Shown in pieces: positions 15,662-33,370 of a stretch of 37,785 bases of DNA (the stretch's first letter is position 1; the number at the start of each line of letters is the position of its first letter). Below the pieces are notes generated by a model. That model was not told where the DNA came from, made no database searches, and was given only the letters and a program-made list of their open reading frames with translations. The position numbers and the translations under genes were made by a program. Source of the DNA: a bacterium. Its GTDB lineage: Bacteria; Planctomycetota; Planctomycetia; Pirellulales; UBA1268. The DNA lies in assembly GCA_029978085.1 (NCBI GenBank), contig JAPOJV010000014.1:1-37785 (forward strand), written 5' to 3'.

Positions 15662-15717
15662 CGCGTACCTCACGCACCATCCACGAGTCAATCATCGTAA
15701 CTCCACGAATCGCGTGA

Positions 15718-15852
15718 GGGGTTGCCCATGCCCCGAGAGCCGGCGTATGCCGCCGAGCGTAGCCAGGATGGCGAAGCGAAGGCGGCATCCGAGCGAGCGA
15801 AGGGCATGGATGCCCGTAGCGAGCGTCCGGCTTTCGGGGCATGAGCAACCCC
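15718..15852 (+). repeat. Structured hairpin repeat, copy A
   Basis: A 135-base element bounded by an inverted repeat of about 26 bases. The left end begins GGGGTTGCCCATGCCCC and the right end finishes GGGGCATGAGCAACCCC. The interior can fold into ATGCCGCC (15747-15754) paired with GGCGGCAT (15781-15788), a small hairpin GCC-AGGAT-GGC (15762-15772) inside it, and GGGC-ATGGAT-GCCC (15802-15815). Copies B and C have the same order and strand orientation. No target-site duplication is clear, and the element contains no open frame of note. Confidence 0.9.
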
Positions 15853-18840: not shown

Positions 18841-18984
18841 GGTGCGGGGCTGCCCATGCCCCAGGAGCCGGCGTATGCCGCCGAGCGCAGCCAGGATGGC
18901 GAAGCGAAGGCGGCATCCGAGCGAGCGGAGGGCAGGGATGCCCGACGCGAGCGTCCGGCGACGGGGCGTGGGCAGCCCCGCACC
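18841..18984 (+). repeat. Structured hairpin repeat, copy B
   Basis: A 144-base copy with terminal inverted repeat GGTGCGGGGCTGCCCATG at the left and its near complement ending GGGCAGCCCCGCACC at the right. The interior again has ATGCCGCC (18875-18882) paired with GGCGGCAT (18909-18916), GCC-AGGAT-GGC (18890-18900) and GGGC-AGGGAT-GCCC (18930-18943). It fills most of the gap between the ROK kinase start and the peroxidase stop, both on the minus strand. Confidence 0.9.
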
Positions 18985-23129: not shown

Positions 23130-23261
23130 GGGGCTGCCCATGCCCCGTCGCCGGCGTATGGCGGCAAGCGCAGGCAGGATGCCGAAAGCGCAGCCGCCAT
23201 CGAGCGAGCGAAGGACAGGATGTCCGTAGCGAGCGTCCGGCGACGGGGCGTGGGCAGCCCC
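23130..23261 (+). repeat. Structured hairpin repeat, copy C
   Basis: A 132-base copy starting at the base after the TlpA-like stop codon. The terminal inverted repeat is GGGGCTGCCCATGCCCCGTC at the left and its near-perfect complement at the right (24 of 25 positions). Relative to copies A and B, both sides of each internal stem have changed together: ATGGCGGC (23158-23165) pairs with GCCGCCAT (23193-23200), GGC-AGGAT-GCC (23173-23183), and GGAC-AGGAT-GTCC (23213-23225). The loops stay the same. Confidence 0.9.
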
Positions 23262-23300
23262 GAACTCTTGTCACAGGGGGCGGCGCGTGCGGGCGACGGG

Positions 23301-23306: not shown

Positions 23307-23332
23307 CGACCGCCCGTATGAGGAGGTTTGTG

Positions 23333-25084
23333 ATGAAATCAGATGCGAAGCAGGAGGCCGACGCGCCGCTCCCGAAGGGGCATCGCCCCGGCGACCGCGT
23401 GCAGGATCCGCGTGGCTGGGGCCGCGAGACGGTCGAGTCGATCGTCGTGGCCTTTACGCTCGCCCTGCTGTTCCGCGCCTTCGAGGCGGAGGCGTTCGTG
23501 ATCCCGACCGGCTCGATGGCCCCCACGCTCATGGGCCGCCACAAGGATCTCGTCTGCGATGCCTGCGGCCGCGACTTCCGCGTCGGCTGCAGCGCCGAGG
23601 AAGATGACGACTCGCAGCGGAAGCGGGCCGAGCTCGCCCTGCTCGAAAGCGAGAACCGCGAGCCGGCCCGGATCGCAGCCCTGCGGCGGAACCTCGCCGA
23701 CAAGCTCGTGTCGCGGGCCCGCTGCCCCAACTGTGGCAATCCCATGCCGCTCACGGTCGGCCCCGACGATGCTCGCCGCTACGACCCACGGTATCCGTCG
23801 TTCAGCGGTGACCGCATCCTCGTGGACAAGCTGGCCTACGACTTCGCCGAGCCGAAGCGGTGGGACGTGGTGGTCTTCAAGTATCCCGAGGATGCCAAGA
23901 CCAATTACATCAAGCGGCTCGTGGGGCTGCCGGGCGAGAACGTCTTCATTTCGGCGGGCGACATCTGGACGAGCCAGGGCGAGGCCGATCCCGTGATCGC
24001 CCGCAAGCCCGACACTGCGCTCCTGGCGATGCTCCAGCTCGTGCACGACTCGCGGCACGTGTCGCCAGAGTTGCAGAAGGCCGGCTGGCCGCTGGCCTGG
24101 ACCGACTGGACCGCGGACGCGGATGCCCCCTGCCGCTGGGCCACGGCCGACGCAGGACGCTCCTTCAGCGTCGCTTGTAAAGCCGGTCGCTCAGCCACGC
24201 TGCGGTACCGGCATCTGATCCCGTCGTTCGACACCTGGCGGGAGGTGCGGCAGGGCAAGCAGGTGGGTGAGCGGGCCAAGCCGCTGTTGATCGGTGACTT
24301 CCAGCCATACAACGCCGAGTCGCTCGGGCCGCGATGGGTGGGCGACCTTGCACTGGAGTGCACGCTCGAGAGCCGTGCCGGCACCGGTACGGTGACGCTC
24401 GATCTGGTCGAGGCCGGCGTGCGGCACACATGCACGATCGACCTCGCCGACGGCCAAGCCACGCTCGTGCCCGGGGCCGTCGCCGGGAGCGGGCCGCCGC
24501 TCGATGCCGTCACGGCCGCGACGCCGGTGCGCGGCCGCGGCCGCTGGCGGATGCTGCTGACGAACATCGACGATGAGCTGCGGCTGTTCGTCGATGGCAA
24601 GGCCGTGGCATTCTCCGGCCCGACCGGCTGGAACCGGTCGCTGCCCGGTGCATTCAAGACGCGGCCGGTCGAGCGGTCCGGCACGCCGGGAGACGTCGAG
24701 CCGGGCGACCTCTCTCCCGCGGGCATCACGGCCGCCGGCGCGGATGTGGCCGTGAGCAGCCTGCGAATCCTGCGCGACATCTACTACATCGCCTCCGGCG
24801 CGGCCTCAGCCATGGCGGGCCGCACGCCCGAGGAGGAATATCTCGGGTTCCCGCTCGAGGACGGGCAGTACTTCATGCTGGGCGACAACTCATCGGCCAG
24901 CAAGGACAGCCGGGCCTGGGATCGGCTCCACCATGTCGATCGGCGGCTGATCATCGGCCGGGCGGTCGCGATCTTTTGGCCGCATGCCATCCCGGCACCC
25001 TGGAGCATTCCGCTGCGAATTGGCGGCCTGGAAGTGCGATTGCCCTCGTGGCCCAACTTCGGGAGGATGGGCTTCGTGCGGTGA
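23333..25084 (+). CDS. lepB: Signal peptidase I with large insertions
   Basis: A membrane-anchored serine protease that removes Sec and Tat signal peptides. The anchor helix is at about residues 34-49. The catalytic Ser61 is in IPTGSMAPTL, catalytic Lys194 in YIKRLVGLPGE, and the conserved LGDNSSASKDSR near 520. The protein has 583 residues, far longer than the 200-320 typical. Insert 1 (about 70-145) holds CDACG and CPNCG and probably binds a metal. Insert 2 (about 220-480) resembles a LamG/concanavalin-type beta sandwich (ALECTLESRAGTGTVTLDLVEAG, ELRLFVDGKAVAF). The ATG at 23333 is chosen because AGGAGG at 23321-23326 is six bases upstream. lptB follows after 43 bases. Confidence 0.92.
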   Translation: MKSDAKQEADAPLPKGHRPGDRVQDPRGWGRETVESIVVAFTLALLFRAFEAEAFVIPTGSMAPTLMGRHKDLVCDACGRDFRVGCSAEEDDDSQRKRAELALLESENREPARIAALRRNLADKLVSRARCPNCGNPMPLTVGPDDARRYDPRYPSFSGDRILVDKLAYDFAEPKRWDVVVFKYPEDAKTNYIKRLVGLPGENVFISAGDIWTSQGEADPVIARKPDTALLAMLQLVHDSRHVSPELQKAGWPLAWTDWTADADAPCRWATADAGRSFSVACKAGRSATLRYRHLIPSFDTWREVRQGKQVGERAKPLLIGDFQPYNAESLGPRWVGDLALECTLESRAGTGTVTLDLVEAGVRHTCTIDLADGQATLVPGAVAGSGPPLDAVTAATPVRGRGRWRMLLTNIDDELRLFVDGKAVAFSGPTGWNRSLPGAFKTRPVERSGTPGDVEPGDLSPAGITAAGADVAVSSLRILRDIYYIASGAASAMAGRTPEEEYLGFPLEDGQYFMLGDNSSASKDSRAWDRLHHVDRRLIIGRAVAIFWPHAIPAPWSIPLRIGGLEVRLPSWPNFGRMGFVR

Positions 25085-26441: not shown

Positions 26442-27869
26442 ATGACGATGAAGGTCCGGGTTGGAGCGGTCGGAGGGCCGCTCCCCAACAGTTCCCGTAG
26501 CAACCGGCGAGTCACCGTGAACCGACGCACGACATTCCGCCTCGCGGCCAGCCTCGCGGCCGTGGTCTGGTGCGGCCCGCCGCTCACGACACGGGGCCAG
26601 GAGCCCCTGCCCCCGCTGGTGCTGGCGGAGGACGAGGGCGTGGTTTCCGGTGGGTCTTTCGTGCTGGAAGGACCGGTCGCCGACGCCCCGCTGCCCGCAC
26701 AGTCACTGCCCGCGCCCGCAGCGGTGCCAGGGAGCATTCTGTCCGACGTGCCGGTGGCCGCGCCGCCGGCAGAGCTCGTCGAGGTGTCACCGCGGGCGTC
26801 AGACGCCCTGCGGATCGACGACTTCGCGTTCGACGAGATGCCGTTCGAAGCCAGCTCCGGCCGGTGGTTCTGGAGCGGCGGCTGGTATGCCGGCGTCGAG
26901 TCGATGTGGATGGACCGCAGCCGCAACAACAACGAAGTGGTGGTGCAGGACGTCGATGTGGTGGCACCCGGTCGGCGCACGATCAACTATCAGGCCTACG
27001 GCCAGCCGTTCGACCTCGCGCCGGGGGCCAGGATCACGCTGGGACGGTCGCTCGGTCCTGACGACGTCGGCCGTGACCGGGCCCTCGAATGCATCTACTA
27101 CGGTGGGATGTCGTGGGCCGACAACGACGGCTGGAACGCGGAGCAGGACGGCGTGCTCGTCACGCCCCTCAATTACAACGCCCCAGGCTTCAACGGCGGC
27201 GATCGCTACACGACGTCGCTGAAGTCCGACTTCAACAGCTGGGAATTCAACTACAAGATTCGCCGTCGGCTCGGCCGCGACCAGATGATCATGTCACCGG
27301 GCGGCGACTGGACGCGTCACGCCGAGCGGGGCTTCCTGCCCGGGCTGATCGTGGGCGTGCGTCTCGCGCACATCAACGAGTTCTGGAACATGCAAAGCTC
27401 CCAGCTCAATCCGCCCCCCACGCCCCCGGCCGAGTTCGGGGGTGTCTACGACATCACCGCGACAAACTGGCTGCTCGGCATGAACTTTGGCAGCGAACTG
27501 ATCAGCCAGAACGAGTTCTTCTACTGGGGCCTCCGCGGCCGCGTGGCGCCGGCGATCAACTTCGCCAGCACGCACCAGCAGGGCACCGGCATCAACACCG
27601 ATCCCACGATCGAGCCACAGGGGGTCACCGACACCATGGAGAGCGGATCGCAGACGGGGGCCGGGTTCCTCGGCGACCTGACGATCCTGCTCGGCTGGAA
27701 CATCACGCCGAACTTCTCGCTTCAGGCCGGCTACGACTTCCTCTGGGTGGCCGGCATGGCCACGGCCACGCGGCAGTTCAGCCTCAATAACCGCCAGTTC
27801 GAGGACATCGACGCCGGCGGCCAGACCTTCTATCAGGGCCTGTCGTTCGGCTTCCTCGGCTCCTGGTGA
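26442..27869 (+). CDS. BBP7-family outer-membrane beta-barrel protein
   Basis: A 475-residue exported protein resembling the planctomycete BBP7 beta-barrel family. A signal peptide lies at about residues 26-52 (NRRTTFRLAASLAAVVWCGPPLTTRGQ). An Ala/Pro-rich linker is followed from residue about 145 by alternating strands rich in aromatics: WFWSGGWYAGVESMWMDR, GARITLGRS, SWEFNYKIRRRLG, LPGLIVGVRLAHINEFW, ITPNFSLQAGYDFLWVAG. It ends with a terminal strand, TFYQGLSFGFLGSW, whose final aromatic fits outer-membrane barrel assembly. The transported substrate is unknown. ATG 26442 is taken. GTG 26517, just before the signal peptide, is a real alternative. The last 37 bases overlap the 3' end of the convergent ketoacyl synthase-like gene. 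Confidence 0.85.
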   Translation: MTMKVRVGAVGGPLPNSSRSNRRVTVNRRTTFRLAASLAAVVWCGPPLTTRGQEPLPPLVLAEDEGVVSGGSFVLEGPVADAPLPAQSLPAPAAVPGSILSDVPVAAPPAELVEVSPRASDALRIDDFAFDEMPFEASSGRWFWSGGWYAGVESMWMDRSRNNNEVVVQDVDVVAPGRRTINYQAYGQPFDLAPGARITLGRSLGPDDVGRDRALECIYYGGMSWADNDGWNAEQDGVLVTPLNYNAPGFNGGDRYTTSLKSDFNSWEFNYKIRRRLGRDQMIMSPGGDWTRHAERGFLPGLIVGVRLAHINEFWNMQSSQLNPPPTPPAEFGGVYDITATNWLLGMNFGSELISQNEFFYWGLRGRVAPAINFASTHQQGTGINTDPTIEPQGVTDTMESGSQTGAGFLGDLTILLGWNITPNFSLQAGYDFLWVAGMATATRQFSLNNRQFEDIDAGGQTFYQGLSFGFLGSW

Positions 27870-29125
27870 CCGGCGATCACCACGGCCGCTGCCTGGCCGG
27901 TCGAACAAAGGTTGATCGCGACGGCGGTGGACGGCCTCCCGGCCAGTGGCTCGCCATGCACCACATTCACGGGGCAGGCTGGATCGGGATGCTCGTAGTT
28001 GAGCGTGGGTGGCACGAGCCCCCGCTCGAGCCCCAGCACGCTGGCAGCCAGTTCCACGGCGCCACCGCCGGCCCCCATGTGGCCGAAGGCCGACTTCGGC
28101 GCCGTCACCGGCACGTCGCCAAGCGCCGTCTGGATTGCCTGAGCCTCGATCCGATCCATGTCGATCGTGCCGACGCCATGGGCATTGACGTGGCCGACGT
28201 CGCCGGGAGCCAGGCCTGCCCCGCGGCAGGCCGCCGTGATCGCCTGCACGAGCGAATGCCCCGTCAGGCCGCGGCGCAGGGCCGGCTCGCAGCGTGAGGC
28301 TGTAGCCAGGATGCGGCCGCGAACGCGGGCCCCCCGTCGCTCGGCGTGCTCCCGTGATTCCAGCACGAGCACGGCGGCCCCCTCGCCGTTGACCATGCCG
28401 TCGCGGTCGCGGTCAAAGGGCCGCGCGGCCCGGCGGCAGTCGTCGGCCCGGTGGGAGAGCAGGGCGTCGCCGCGGGCGACGAGCGCGGTCGGGTGGAGCC
28501 GACAGCCAGTGCCACCGGCGAGCATCGCGTCGGCCCAGCCGCGCTGGATCATGCTCGCCGCCTCGGCGACGGCCAGCAGGCTCGACACGTCGCCCAGCAC
28601 GATCGAGTTGTTCGGCCCGCGGGCATCGTGGGCGATGGCGATGTGCGATGCCGTCATGTTGGGGAGATGCTTGAGCAGCCAGAGCGGGTGCACCTCCTCG
28701 TGGATCGCCTCGGCCCAGCGGGGAAAGTCGAAGCTGCCGCTGACGGCCGCCCGCCGATACGCCGTCTCCAGATCCTCGAGGTCCGCGTAGATCATGTCGC
28801 CGCCGAACACGACGCCGAACCGCTCCGGCGTCACGCCCCCCGCGGGGATCGCCGCGTCGGCGATCGCCAGATCGGCCGCCGCGAACCCCAGCTGGATCTC
28901 GCGGCTCATCACCTTCAGGCTCTTTCGCGGCCGCACGAAGAGCTTCGGCTCGAAGTCGGCGATCTGACCGCCGAACCTCACCTTCAGCGAACTGGCGTCG
29001 AACAGGCTGATGGGGCGGATGCCGCTCTCGCCGGCGGCGAGCGCCGCCCAGAAGGGTTCGACACCGATGCCGATCGGGCTGACGACCCCGACCCCGGTAA
29101 TGACGATGTCGCGCGGGCTCTCCAT
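27833..29125 (-). CDS. Ketoacyl synthase homologue with Asp in place of active Cys
   Basis: A 430-residue thiolase-fold protein of the FabF/KAS-II type. The N-terminal VITGVGVVSPIG, the middle LPNMTASHIAIAHDARGPN, and both catalytic His regions, VNAHGVGT (His316) and KSAFGHMGAGGGAVEL (Lys344, His349), are conserved. The nucleophile elbow, TACASG in active enzymes, reads LGDVSS. Aligning from GPN, Cys is replaced by Asp179. It therefore should not form an acyl-enzyme and may act like a chain-length factor, a decarboxylase-like protein or a scaffold. No partner synthase or acyl carrier protein gene is nearby. The ATG has AGGG seven bases upstream. The 3' end overlaps the convergent barrel gene by 37 bases. 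Confidence 0.88.
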   Translation of the reverse strand: MESPRDIVITGVGVVSPIGIGVEPFWAALAAGESGIRPISLFDASSLKVRFGGQIADFEPKLFVRPRKSLKVMSREIQLGFAAADLAIADAAIPAGGVTPERFGVVFGGDMIYADLEDLETAYRRAAVSGSFDFPRWAEAIHEEVHPLWLLKHLPNMTASHIAIAHDARGPNNSIVLGDVSSLLAVAEAASMIQRGWADAMLAGGTGCRLHPTALVARGDALLSHRADDCRRAARPFDRDRDGMVNGEGAAVLVLESREHAERRGARVRGRILATASRCEPALRRGLTGHSLVQAITAACRGAGLAPGDVGHVNAHGVGTIDMDRIEAQAIQTALGDVPVTAPKSAFGHMGAGGGAVELAASVLGLERGLVPPTLNYEHPDPACPVNVVHGEPLAGRPSTAVAINLCSTGQAAAVVIAGHQEPRKPNDRP

Positions 29126-29187: not shown

Positions 29188-29763
29188 TCACCGGTGGGGC
29201 GGGTGCAGCCGCCGCCATTCGGCGGGCTCGGTCGGATGCGGCTCCGCCCAGAGTCCCAGCCGGCCGCGGCGGGCGGTCTCCTCGGCGGCCACGAGATTCT
29301 CGTCGGGGGCGAAGCCGCCGAAGACCCAGGCGGCCCCCTCGGCGACGAGTTCCTGGTTGAGATTCCGCTCGTCGATCCAGAGCGTGCCGAGCAGCCGGCC
29401 ATGCTGGTCGATCGCGTCTCCCTCCACCCGCACGGGTCGCCCCACCACCTTTGCCCGCAACCGCTCCCGCGACCAGTCGCCGTAGGGCTGGCCGAACTCG
29501 GGCGCGTCGATGCCCACGAGACGGATCTTGTGCGCCCGCCCCTCGGGATCGATGCAGGTGACCGTGTCGCCATCGTGCACGGCATCGACCCGCCAGGCGG
29601 GTCGACCGGCCGAGTCGTGCAGCGGGCACATCGGCACGACGACGGTCGCCGCCACCGACACCAGTGCGGCTGCCACTGCGTACCAGGGCCGCAGCCGCTT
29701 CGGCAGGCCACGGGGGGGCGGCGGCAGCCGGAAGGGCTTCCGGCCCCGGAAGGGGCTAGCCAA
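29188..29763 (-). CDS. Thermonuclease (SNase-like) family nuclease
   Basis: A 191-residue staphylococcal-nuclease-like protein. The OB-fold signatures are VDAVHDGDTVTC, IRLVGIDAPEFGQPYG (metal-site Asp, with the Arg just before), GRLLGTLWIDERNLNQELVAEGAAW and RRGRLGLW. A hydrophobic segment after a basic start (RPWYAVAAALVSVAATVVVPMC) indicates export or membrane anchoring. The start is uncertain. I use the TTG at 29763, which overlaps the stop of the upstream gene by eight bases. A longer frame from 29865 would run through that gene. Ca2+-dependent DNA/RNA cleavage is the family activity, but the substrate is unproven here. The ketoacyl synthase-like gene follows after 62 bases. Confidence 0.82.
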   Translation of the reverse strand: MASPFRGRKPFRLPPPPRGLPKRLRPWYAVAAALVSVAATVVVPMCPLHDSAGRPAWRVDAVHDGDTVTCIDPEGRAHKIRLVGIDAPEFGQPYGDWSRERLRAKVVGRPVRVEGDAIDQHGRLLGTLWIDERNLNQELVAEGAAWVFGGFAPDENLVAAEETARRGRLGLWAEPHPTEPAEWRRLHPPHR

Positions 29764-30043
29764 GTTCGTCGTCGTCGCTCGTGGCGTCACGCTCGTCGGC
29801 GTAGGGGTCGCGGATGCAGGCCGTCTCGGCGCACACATCCTCCCCGTCGTCGAGGTCGCAGACAAGCGAGAGGAGCGCGTTCTTCTCCGACTCGGAGATT
29901 TCGGCGAGGCGGAAGCTGCGGATGATCTCCGGCACCGGGTCGACGGTGGGCTCGCACACCTCCACGCTCACACGGCCGGTCATGATCTGCCCCCGCCGAC
30001 CGGCGAACCGTTCGCAGAGCGCCCGCAAGTTTTCGCGATCCAT
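29756..30043 (-). CDS. Cys- and acid-rich hypothetical protein
   Basis: A 95-residue protein I do not recognise. It has no membrane segment. Residues 1-30 are basic and helical (MDRENLRALCERFAGRRGQI). A middle strand reads MTGRVSVEVCEPTVDPVPEIIRSFRLAEISESEKN. The last third is strongly acidic, with five Cys in the protein (including VCDLDDGEDVCAETACIRD). AAGGA lies three bases before the ATG. It overlaps the start of the nuclease gene, so the two are likely co-translated, and it could be a nuclease partner or inhibitor, which is inference from position only. Confidence 0.6.
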   Translation of the reverse strand: MDRENLRALCERFAGRRGQIMTGRVSVEVCEPTVDPVPEIIRSFRLAEISESEKNALLSLVCDLDDGEDVCAETACIRDPYADERDATSDDDELG

Positions 30044-31799: not shown

Positions 31800-32528
31800 T
31801 CAGGTCCGCAGCTCGTCGAGCCGAGCCGCGATCGCCTCGGGGTTCGCTCCGCCCCAGAGGCGATGCCACATCCGCGCCAGCCGGTAGCCCATCGAACGCG
31901 TCGCCCGACTGCGGCGCATCCGCGGATCGCGGCGATCGACCAGCGGGCGATCCACGAACCGCTCCAGCCGGGCGAGCTCGGCAGGGTCAGTCATGAGCTT
32001 TGCGTAGTCGATCACGATGAACGGCTGTGTCGTCCGGTCGAGTGCCGAGAGAATGGCCGCGTTGGAGTCGCACCACCGCGGCAGACACTGCCGGAACACG
32101 GTCAGCCGGCGGCGGCCCGCCGTCGAGGCCTGGTAGTGGGCCCAGGCCTCCTCGGGGCGGCGAAAGACGGCGACGATCCGGTGCGGCGGCAGTTCACCCG
32201 CCCACAGGTCGTAGGTGAGACAGGTGCGTGGATCCTTGAACCCCCAGTCGGGATGCCGGGCCGAGCAGGCGGCGATGACGTCCCGCATGCGTGCCCGCTC
32301 GGCATCCCCGAACCGCCGCGTGTGGCCAACCGTCTCGAGGCTATAGGCCCCGGCCGACCCGAGGATCACGTGATTCACCTGCTTGGTCGATTCCCGCTCC
32401 CACTTGTTGCCCTCGTCGTAGCCGGCCTCGGAATGCACCGTGTCGACCATGTCGATGCCGGCATGGTGCAGCAGTTCCGACACGAGCGTGGTGCCCGATT
32501 TGTGCATCCCGAGCACGACGTGAATCAT
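31800..32528 (-). CDS. Sulfotransferase-like protein
   Basis: A 242-residue protein with the PAPS 5'-phosphosulfate loop right at the start (MIHVVLGMHKSGTTLVSELLHHAGI) and a second element, RIVAVFRRPEEAWAHYQAS, comparable to the 3'-phosphate site. WGFKDPRTCLTYDLW and PFIVIDYAKLMTDP are typical of bacterial sulfotransferases acting on glycans. The acceptor is unknown. The start ATG at 32528 is two bases after the upstream gene's stop, with GGAG nine bases before it. A GTG at 32543 is an alternative. The two genes are clearly one transcript. Confidence 0.82.
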   Translation of the reverse strand: MIHVVLGMHKSGTTLVSELLHHAGIDMVDTVHSEAGYDEGNKWERESTKQVNHVILGSAGAYSLETVGHTRRFGDAERARMRDVIAACSARHPDWGFKDPRTCLTYDLWAGELPPHRIVAVFRRPEEAWAHYQASTAGRRRLTVFRQCLPRWCDSNAAILSALDRTTQPFIVIDYAKLMTDPAELARLERFVDRPLVDRRDPRMRRSRATRSMGYRLARMWHRLWGGANPEAIAARLDELRT

Positions 32529-32530
32529 CG

Positions 32531-33370
32531 TCAGCGGCTCCACGTGGCGTCGATGCCGTTGGAATACACGTGGTCGCGGTTGTACCGCATGATCCGCGGG
32601 CAGAGCAGGGACGGCAGCAGCCAGTCACGCCGCATGAACCAGCGGTGGTCGTAGGTGATCGCAGCCTTCTCCGGCTGCCGCCGCATCCGGTTGCCTCGGA
32701 GCACGTGGCTTCGGGAGGAAGAGCGTTCCAGCATCGCCGGCTCGAAGGCGAGCCCGAGGAACTGGCAGATCTCCCGCATGATCGGCTCGGCTGCCAGGCA
32801 CAGTTCCTCGTAGCCCAGCTGAAACGTCGGCAACTGGCTGTCCCGCAGGAACTGCTCGACAGCCCGATTGTGCCGGTACCAATAGGCGAACGCGCCGAGC
32901 GGTGACAGCCGCCGCCGCCGCTGCCCCTCACCACGCTTGCGGACCGCGGCCTCCACTTCCGACGACGTAAAATTCCTCACGTCCTTGAGCAGAAACAACA
33001 CCCGCAGGTCGACGCCGACCTCGTCGCGGAGCAGCCTGAGCCAGGGGAGGTATTTCGAGGAATCGACCGGCATGACGTCGGGCCCGAAGACGGCCGCAAC
33101 GGTCTCGAACACGATTCGGTACCGGTGGGCGAGTGGCGCGTGGGGGTCGGCCTGGATTCGGCGGGCCACCTCGCTCCAGAGCGGGCACGACGCGGCATCC
33201 TGCCCACAGGAACAATCACCCGTGAACGACCGCCCGCCGTCGCTGGCCGAGGTGAGCACTGACGCCACCTCACCCAGTCCCACGAGCCGCGAATGCCCGC
33301 CGAGCACGAGGTCGAGCAGCGTCGATCCCGAATGCCCGAGACTCGCGATGAACACGACCGGATATGTCAT
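32531..33370 (-). CDS. Sulfotransferase-like protein
   Basis: A 279-residue sulfotransferase-family protein. The start VVFIASLGHSGSTLLDLVLGGHS is the PAPS-binding P-loop-like motif. VDSSKYLPWLRLL and LRVLFLLKDVRNFTSSEVEAA follow the family, with the 3'-phosphate-binding Arg/Ser. A small Cys-rich stretch, DCSCGQDAASCPLW, at about 52-65 could bind a metal or form disulfides and recurs in related proteins that I recall. The last third (GNRMRRQPEKAAITYDHRWF) is typical of the C-terminal part. The gene heads a two-gene minus-strand operon with the sulfotransferase-like gene downstream, and is divergent from a glycosyltransferase gene at 33558. Confidence 0.83.
   Translation of the reverse strand: MTYPVVFIASLGHSGSTLLDLVLGGHSRLVGLGEVASVLTSASDGGRSFTGDCSCGQDAASCPLWSEVARRIQADPHAPLAHRYRIVFETVAAVFGPDVMPVDSSKYLPWLRLLRDEVGVDLRVLFLLKDVRNFTSSEVEAAVRKRGEGQRRRRLSPLGAFAYWYRHNRAVEQFLRDSQLPTFQLGYEELCLAAEPIMREICQFLGLAFEPAMLERSSSRSHVLRGNRMRRQPEKAAITYDHRWFMRRDWLLPSLLCPRIMRYNRDHVYSNGIDATWSR

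Follow-up and report, generated by a model that had tools for sequence, protein, structure and literature searches.

The stretch of DNA analyzed here (the window, 37,785 nucleotides) is contig C39 of a fragmented Pirellulales genome (GCA_029978085.1; 3.3 Mb in 263 contigs) and encodes a ketosynthase (KS) homolog, here called KS-A, in which an aspartate takes the place of the catalytic cysteine. We consider that KS-A is probably a KSbeta, i.e., a non-condensing subunit resembling chain-length factors (CLFs), whose gene has become unlinked from its operon in the Pirellulales. The observations that carry this reading are a KS fold that has lost the Cys and the gate loop, the common descent of the acid-site copies, the adjacency of relatives to an active Cys-type KS (KSalpha), the slot left empty in the corresponding operon of this genome, the KSalpha encoded there, and the purifying selection acting on the gene. 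The features of KS-A, with residues assigned by alignment, are the following:

27833..29125, minus strand: KS-A, acid-site ketosynthase homolog (KSbeta/CLF-like), 430 amino acids
28589..28591, minus strand: codon of Asp179, which replaces the catalytic Cys (aligned to FabF chains and to 222 KSs)
28178..28180, minus strand: codon of His316, first catalytic His
28094..28096, minus strand: codon of Lys344
28079..28081, minus strand: codon of the second catalytic His, His349 (77 of the 158 relatives have Asn here)
27890..27916, minus strand: residues 404 to 412, INLCSTGQA in place of the NSFGFGGxN gate/oxyanion loop of Cys-type KSs

Active site and fold

KS-A is a full-length protein with the FabF fold, matching both ketoacyl-synthase Pfam domains (1e-38 and 6.5e-22). 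Its nearest solved structures are FabF enzymes (33 to 35% identity), and its score of 287 bits against the curated FabF model TIGR03150 lies below the cut-off of 493.75. With the AlphaFold model (predicted local distance difference test score of 95), the fold search scored FabF and chain 1tqy_B, the actinorhodin CLF, about equally (Z 62.1 and 60.6, respectively), and the FabF C163Q/C164Q mutant structures were also among the structural analogs. PDB entry 9s5h has two KS-like chains; we draw no conclusion from it.

Compared with an elongating FabF (KAS II), KS-A has the two His and the Lys (His316, His349, and Lys344), carries Asp179 instead of the Cys nucleophile, and lacks the GFGGxN gate loop, the listed columns of which are 91 to 100% conserved in Cys-type KSs. 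The loss of this loop is a feature that the first-pass annotation, made from the letters of the window, did not contain. Without the Cys and the Phe/Gly loop, KS-A should not condense, and these alignments support well its assignment as non-condensing. A KS fold devoid of the nucleophile is shared with KSbeta/CLF proteins, although these usually have Gln at that position and KS-A has Asp. It also departs from the KSQ-type decarboxylases, in which Gln occupies the Cys position within a loading module, since KS-A has Asp and is free-standing.

Conservation of the acidic residue

All 60 relatives searched had a match to KS-A at 1e-80, and the matches formed two groups, KS-A and KS-B, ca. 45% identical to each other (the KS-B of this genome is on contig C250). 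The alignment was built from 278 KS open reading frames (ORFs), reduced to 222 distinct ones. Among them, 158 are acid-site relatives, that is, clade members chosen as lacking the Cys, with six Cys-less rows from Acidobacteria/Myxococcota left out. At the nucleophile position, 93 of these 158 had Asp and 61 had Glu (154 together), the other 4 had Ser, and none had Gln, while all 58 Cys-type KSs of the alignment had Cys in this column. The Asp at the nucleophile position, as reported by the first-pass annotation, is thus borne out, and the homolog alignment proposed there as a check found the acid kept; the caveat that homologs might have Cys, making the Asp a single mutation or a sequence error, can be set aside. 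The accompanying statement that both His and the Lys are retained is right for KS-A and too broad for the family: 138 of the 158 had His316 and 147 had Lys344 (the Lys was lost in some Pirellulales copies), but only 72 had His349, with Asn in 77. At the scale of the class, an acid-site KS was found in 139 of 148 genomes at 1e-82 and in the other nine by profile, all nine with D or E; the site residue was read in the fetched sequences, which cover part of the 139 genomes.

The ratio of nonsynonymous to synonymous substitutions (dN/dS) of KS-A against three congeners was 0.09, 0.17, and 0.20, and the gene is therefore under purifying selection. Seen in a single genome, the missing Cys and gate loop could recall a decaying FabF paralog or an assembly error, an explanation that is refuted by the conservation across the class and beyond, together with the open frames and the low dN/dS, and to which we give almost no weight.

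The constraint on the site bears also on a second alternative, namely, that KS-A is a malonyl-acyl carrier protein (malonyl-ACP) decarboxylase of the KSQ/MadB kind with an acid in place of Gln. Its His/His(Asn)/Lys set would decarboxylate malonyl-ACP, priming KSalpha or FabF with acetyl-ACP. The acid, His316, and Lys344 are indeed retained to a degree beyond what a purely structural subunit needs, and the structural analogs include the Cys-to-Gln mutants of FabF; but the second His is so often Asn, some Pirellulales copies have no Lys, Gln is absent from the 158 relatives, and priming is not missing, as FabH scored above its cut-off in 35 of 40 relatives, including this genome. On balance we find a decarboxylase unlikely. 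Replacement of a missing FabH by KS-A was considered separately and rejected as its main role, with a FabH-family match in 40 of 40 relatives at 1e-10, 35 of them over the curated cut-off.

The partner ketosynthase and its operon

The genome encodes a Cys-type KSalpha on contig C56 (G000:C56:20125-21417), in the order FabZ-ACP-hotdog-KSalpha, with no gene between hotdog and KSalpha. The gap between these two genes was 20 to 243 bp in 31 of 32 KSalpha loci (from this genome plus 31 others of the same order), and the remaining locus was cut short upstream. In sister families, the operon reads FabZ-ACP-hotdog-KSbeta-KSalpha (Pfam names), in some cases with FabG, alpha/beta hydrolase, and GH3 genes beyond. 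Adjacency was counted in the 72 of 85 acid-site rows that had a KSalpha among the matches listed. Within that set, the acid-site KS was directly upstream of KSalpha on the same strand in all 35 rows of families f21 and f23 to f26, separated by 12 to 310 bp (median, 81), and adjacent to it in none of the 37 rows of family f22. Apart from two lineages, most relatives in the class have both genes next to each other. KSalpha itself was present in 148 of 148 class genomes.

These data change the terms in which KS-A was first described. That no partner synthase is encoded nearby is true of the window but not of the genome, given the KSalpha on C56. KS-A thus departs from typical KSbeta/CLF genes in not lying next to an active KS (C39 versus C56), yet the missing neighbor does not hold as an argument against a chain-length-factor role, with KSalpha in the same genome and adjacency without exception in the sister families just listed. 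Of the new non-condensing role suggested at first, the non-condensing part stands, with neither Cys nor gate loop in place, whereas the KSalpha of the genome and the sister-family adjacency make a wholly new role unnecessary. The conserved acid could nevertheless have a catalytic function. One version of this is that the operon is a widespread second fatty acid synthase (FAS) of the Planctomycetota, making an uncharacterized envelope lipid, in which KSbeta is an active acid-site enzyme and not a passive chain-length factor; Asp/Glu would act as the general base in a decarboxylation of malonyl-ACP or in a hydrolysis, by which the chain is primed or edited; taken jointly, we see these proposals as a speculative option with a small share of the probability.

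Phylogeny and distribution outside the class

A first tree contained 113 sequences at 66% identity, and two later trees had 58 and 57 hand-picked rows. In the 58-row tree, with four active-site columns masked, 39 acid-site rows stood opposite 19 Cys rows across a branch with 100/100 support. The operon copies branched first, with modest support for the order (84/78 and 88/76), and the Pirellulales KS-A, the f22 KS-A, and KS-B were each a single group. The 57-row tree, which includes rows from outside the class, again split 33 KSbeta from 24 Cys-type KSs by a 100/100 branch, with the active-site columns masked in the class rows and left in place in the 15 added rows; the KSalpha families branched in an order similar to that of KSbeta.

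We had also considered an origin of the D/E change inside the Planctomycetia, as all relatives outside it then seemed to have Cys, an idea overturned by a profile search at 1e-110 that gave a match in 15 of 132 genomes outside the class (31 of 148 overall, 16 in the class). Ten loci were read outside the class (L329 to L338, from 10 of the 11 genomes not belonging to family f37), with E at the site in seven and D, N, and Q (L338) in one each. Nine of them were directly upstream of a Cys-type KS, and the tenth was near a contig end. They form a natural substitution series at the KSbeta site within one operon slot, and such acid, N, and Q copies make the change older than the class. Judging from these comparisons, KSbeta is old in the phylum, with its gene apart from the operon in the lineage of the window. 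In the four f37 genomes, two adjacent KSs both had Cys (loci L234, L235, and L325 to L328), which would be either the state before the loss of Cys or a regain.

Putting these results together, the ancestor of KS-A would have been an acid-site KS directly upstream of KSalpha, as in several other planctomycete lineages, within a second, dedicated type II fatty acid/polyketide operon FabZ-ACP-hotdog-KSbeta-KSalpha. This gene would then have moved out of the operon in the Pirellulales and in one sister family and duplicated, giving KS-A and KS-B. Its product most likely still pairs with KSalpha as a heterodimer, in which KSbeta would shape the acyl cavity, and hence chain length, as in KS-CLF pairs, with the catalytic Cys and the condensation coming from KSalpha alone. 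The partner of each copy would be a C56-type KSalpha or FabF, and the product a lipid.

Several observations, however, weigh against KS-A being such a subunit. KS-A was near KSalpha in none of 53 Pirellulales loci outside family f1. Three genomes (G012, G044, and G051; 97, 97, and 96% complete) had KSalpha and KS-B and no KS-A, even by profile, two genomes of lower completeness, G005 and G007, showed the same combination, and G046 had KS-A with no KSalpha detected, so that the pairing of the two is not strict; KS-B may substitute where KS-A is missing. KS-B sits in the housekeeping region from fabD-fabG-acpP-fabF to nusA-infB, and given this location, FabF (contig C230) could be the partner of KS-A in place of KSalpha. 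Fold comparison separates neither KSbeta from FabF nor FabF from CLF, and, with the Cys pairs of f37, adjacency alone is no proof of a non-condensing role. CLF-like homologs of Acidobacteria/Myxococcota with G at the site grouped with the Cys-type KSs and not with the acid-site clade (another row, on a long branch and gapped at the site, was placed elsewhere in that tree), and descent from known CLFs is not shown by our trees, which contained no actinobacterial CLF. Finally, the KS-A heterodimer is something we infer and not a physical observation.

Comparison with known systems

The actinorhodin CLF is a non-condensing subunit beside an active KS and has Gln at the site. The actinorhodin KS-CLF (PDB 1tqy) is similar in fold to KS-A and, unlike it, belongs to a polyketide cluster. 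Closer in taxonomy are two FabF paralogs of Rhodopirellula baltica, RB3714 (Asp163) and RB4527 (Glu163), that have also lost the gate Phe392 (PMC2649909), i.e., the same Cys-to-Asp/Glu change in two planctomycete paralogs as in KS-A and KS-B. They are probably members of the KS-A and KS-B families, as their motif pattern, which is what we compared, matches loci L299/L300 and L289 to L294. The entry for these genes in PMC2649909 lists them as unusual fabF paralogs and gives no partner, operon, or function. In the open-access literature searched, Asp/Glu FabF paralogs of planctomycetes appeared only in that paper, from which we do not claim their absence from print. The Asp/Glu itself is hence already described, and what is new here is that the acid site is conserved, that its carriers form one clade, that relatives are paired with KSalpha in an operon, and that the corresponding slot is empty in this lineage.

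Another planctomycete, Kuenenia stuttgartiensis, has a non-canonical FabF, kuste3606, beside the FabF kuste3605, ACP, and FabZ (PMC2649909, PMC4790861). Like KSbeta, it is an inactive-looking KS in such company; going by its published description, it differs from KS-A in having Val in place of the Cys and Glu in place of the second His and in belonging to a candidate ladderane cluster. The heterodimers ApeO-ApeC of aryl polyenes and AmcF-AmcG of cispentacin also combine an active KS with a KS-like partner, in clusters described as FAS-like with dehydratase and ACP, as in the KSbeta-KSalpha operon (PMC8358021, PMC10698177). AmcG is described as lacking some CLF elements, in contrast to the full-length KS-A with its acidic site residue. 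A survey of non-actinobacterial KS-CLF pairs reports Planctomycetes among them, with many pairs typed FAS-FAS (PMC10132072); as described, its 2-kb proximity filter would miss unlinked copies such as KS-A.

Neighboring genes and other features of the window

Two genes flank KS-A directly:

29188..29865, minus strand: staphylococcal-nuclease-like gene, 63 bp upstream of KS-A and on the same strand
26442..27869, plus strand: BBP7-like porin gene, convergent with KS-A (weak Pfam match, below cut-off)

The nuclease-like neighbor was present at 38 of the 44 close loci, which belong to the window's own family, was conserved only there, and is probably unrelated in function, adjacent by chance of rearrangement. 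The porin gene overlaps the 3' end of KS-A by 37 bp and is not part of the system. Among the 53 Pirellulales loci outside f1, a GNAT gene was found within 6 kb of KS-A in 13, a fatty acid desaturase in 15, and one or both in 25; these loci were hand-listed and flanks of 3.5 kb or more on both sides are available for 30 of them, making the counts lower bounds. Together with the fab neighbors of KS-B, this suggests lipid work. It would also fit a different fate for KS-A after leaving the operon, as the KSbeta partner of another synthase or as a lipid-sensing or scaffold protein in a lipid pathway with a GNAT acyltransferase, an NAD-dependent epimerase, and the desaturase, the more so as this genome carries a GNAT-epimerase pair on another contig. 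The linkage is patchy, though, with GNAT near KS-A in 0 of 44 loci of the window's own family, and gene neighborhood does not demonstrate contact; we judge this fate improbable, and it is compatible with, rather than exclusive of, KS-A being an unlinked KSbeta.

The HpnA-like epimerase and the GNAT-like protein are a recurrent pair, beside KS-A in several Pirellulales, found on contig C255 of this genome (L146, 8464-10909) and at L070, L076, L077, L078, L089, and L236. Against NCBIfam, the epimerase gave only sub-threshold HpnA-like matches and the GNAT-like protein none; the latter is double length in L073, and a single-length one tested had no Pfam match. The pair recalls bacterial ceramide genes, which we give only as a lead, serine palmitoyltransferase not having been sought and no references having been compared. 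Records titled "Candidatus Kuenenia stuttgartiensis" (L038, L040, L044, L051 to L053, L057, L065, and L090) have KS-A copies 72 to 92% identical to the protein of the window, and their titles look misassigned.

Elsewhere in the window, a GC-rich direct repeat of 68 to 118 nucleotides occurs at 15714-15831, 18842-18959, and 23150-23265, with 92 to 97% identity between two copies and 75% to the third. Similar reading-frame motifs were seen by eye in translations of other contigs of this genome (L146 and L150), and the repeat may be dispersed. The ORF at 23318-25084 (plus strand, 588 amino acids) looks signal-peptidase-I-like; CxxC-type motifs lie close to its N terminus, and its central part has a long insertion. 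At 31800-33370 (minus strand), two adjoining ORFs resemble sulfotransferase-type proteins by eye, in the vicinity of others that look like glycosyltransferases and epimerases.

Implications

A search for chain-length factors that depends on gene proximity overlooks subunits encoded apart from their partner, and the position at which KS-CLF systems are considered to retain Gln can be fixed as an acid (Asp/Glu). If KS-A is a KSbeta, what looked like an isolated pseudo-enzyme would become half of a testable two-subunit synthase, the parts of which are in every sampled genome of the class and also outside it, and a dedicated lipid pathway would be predicted.
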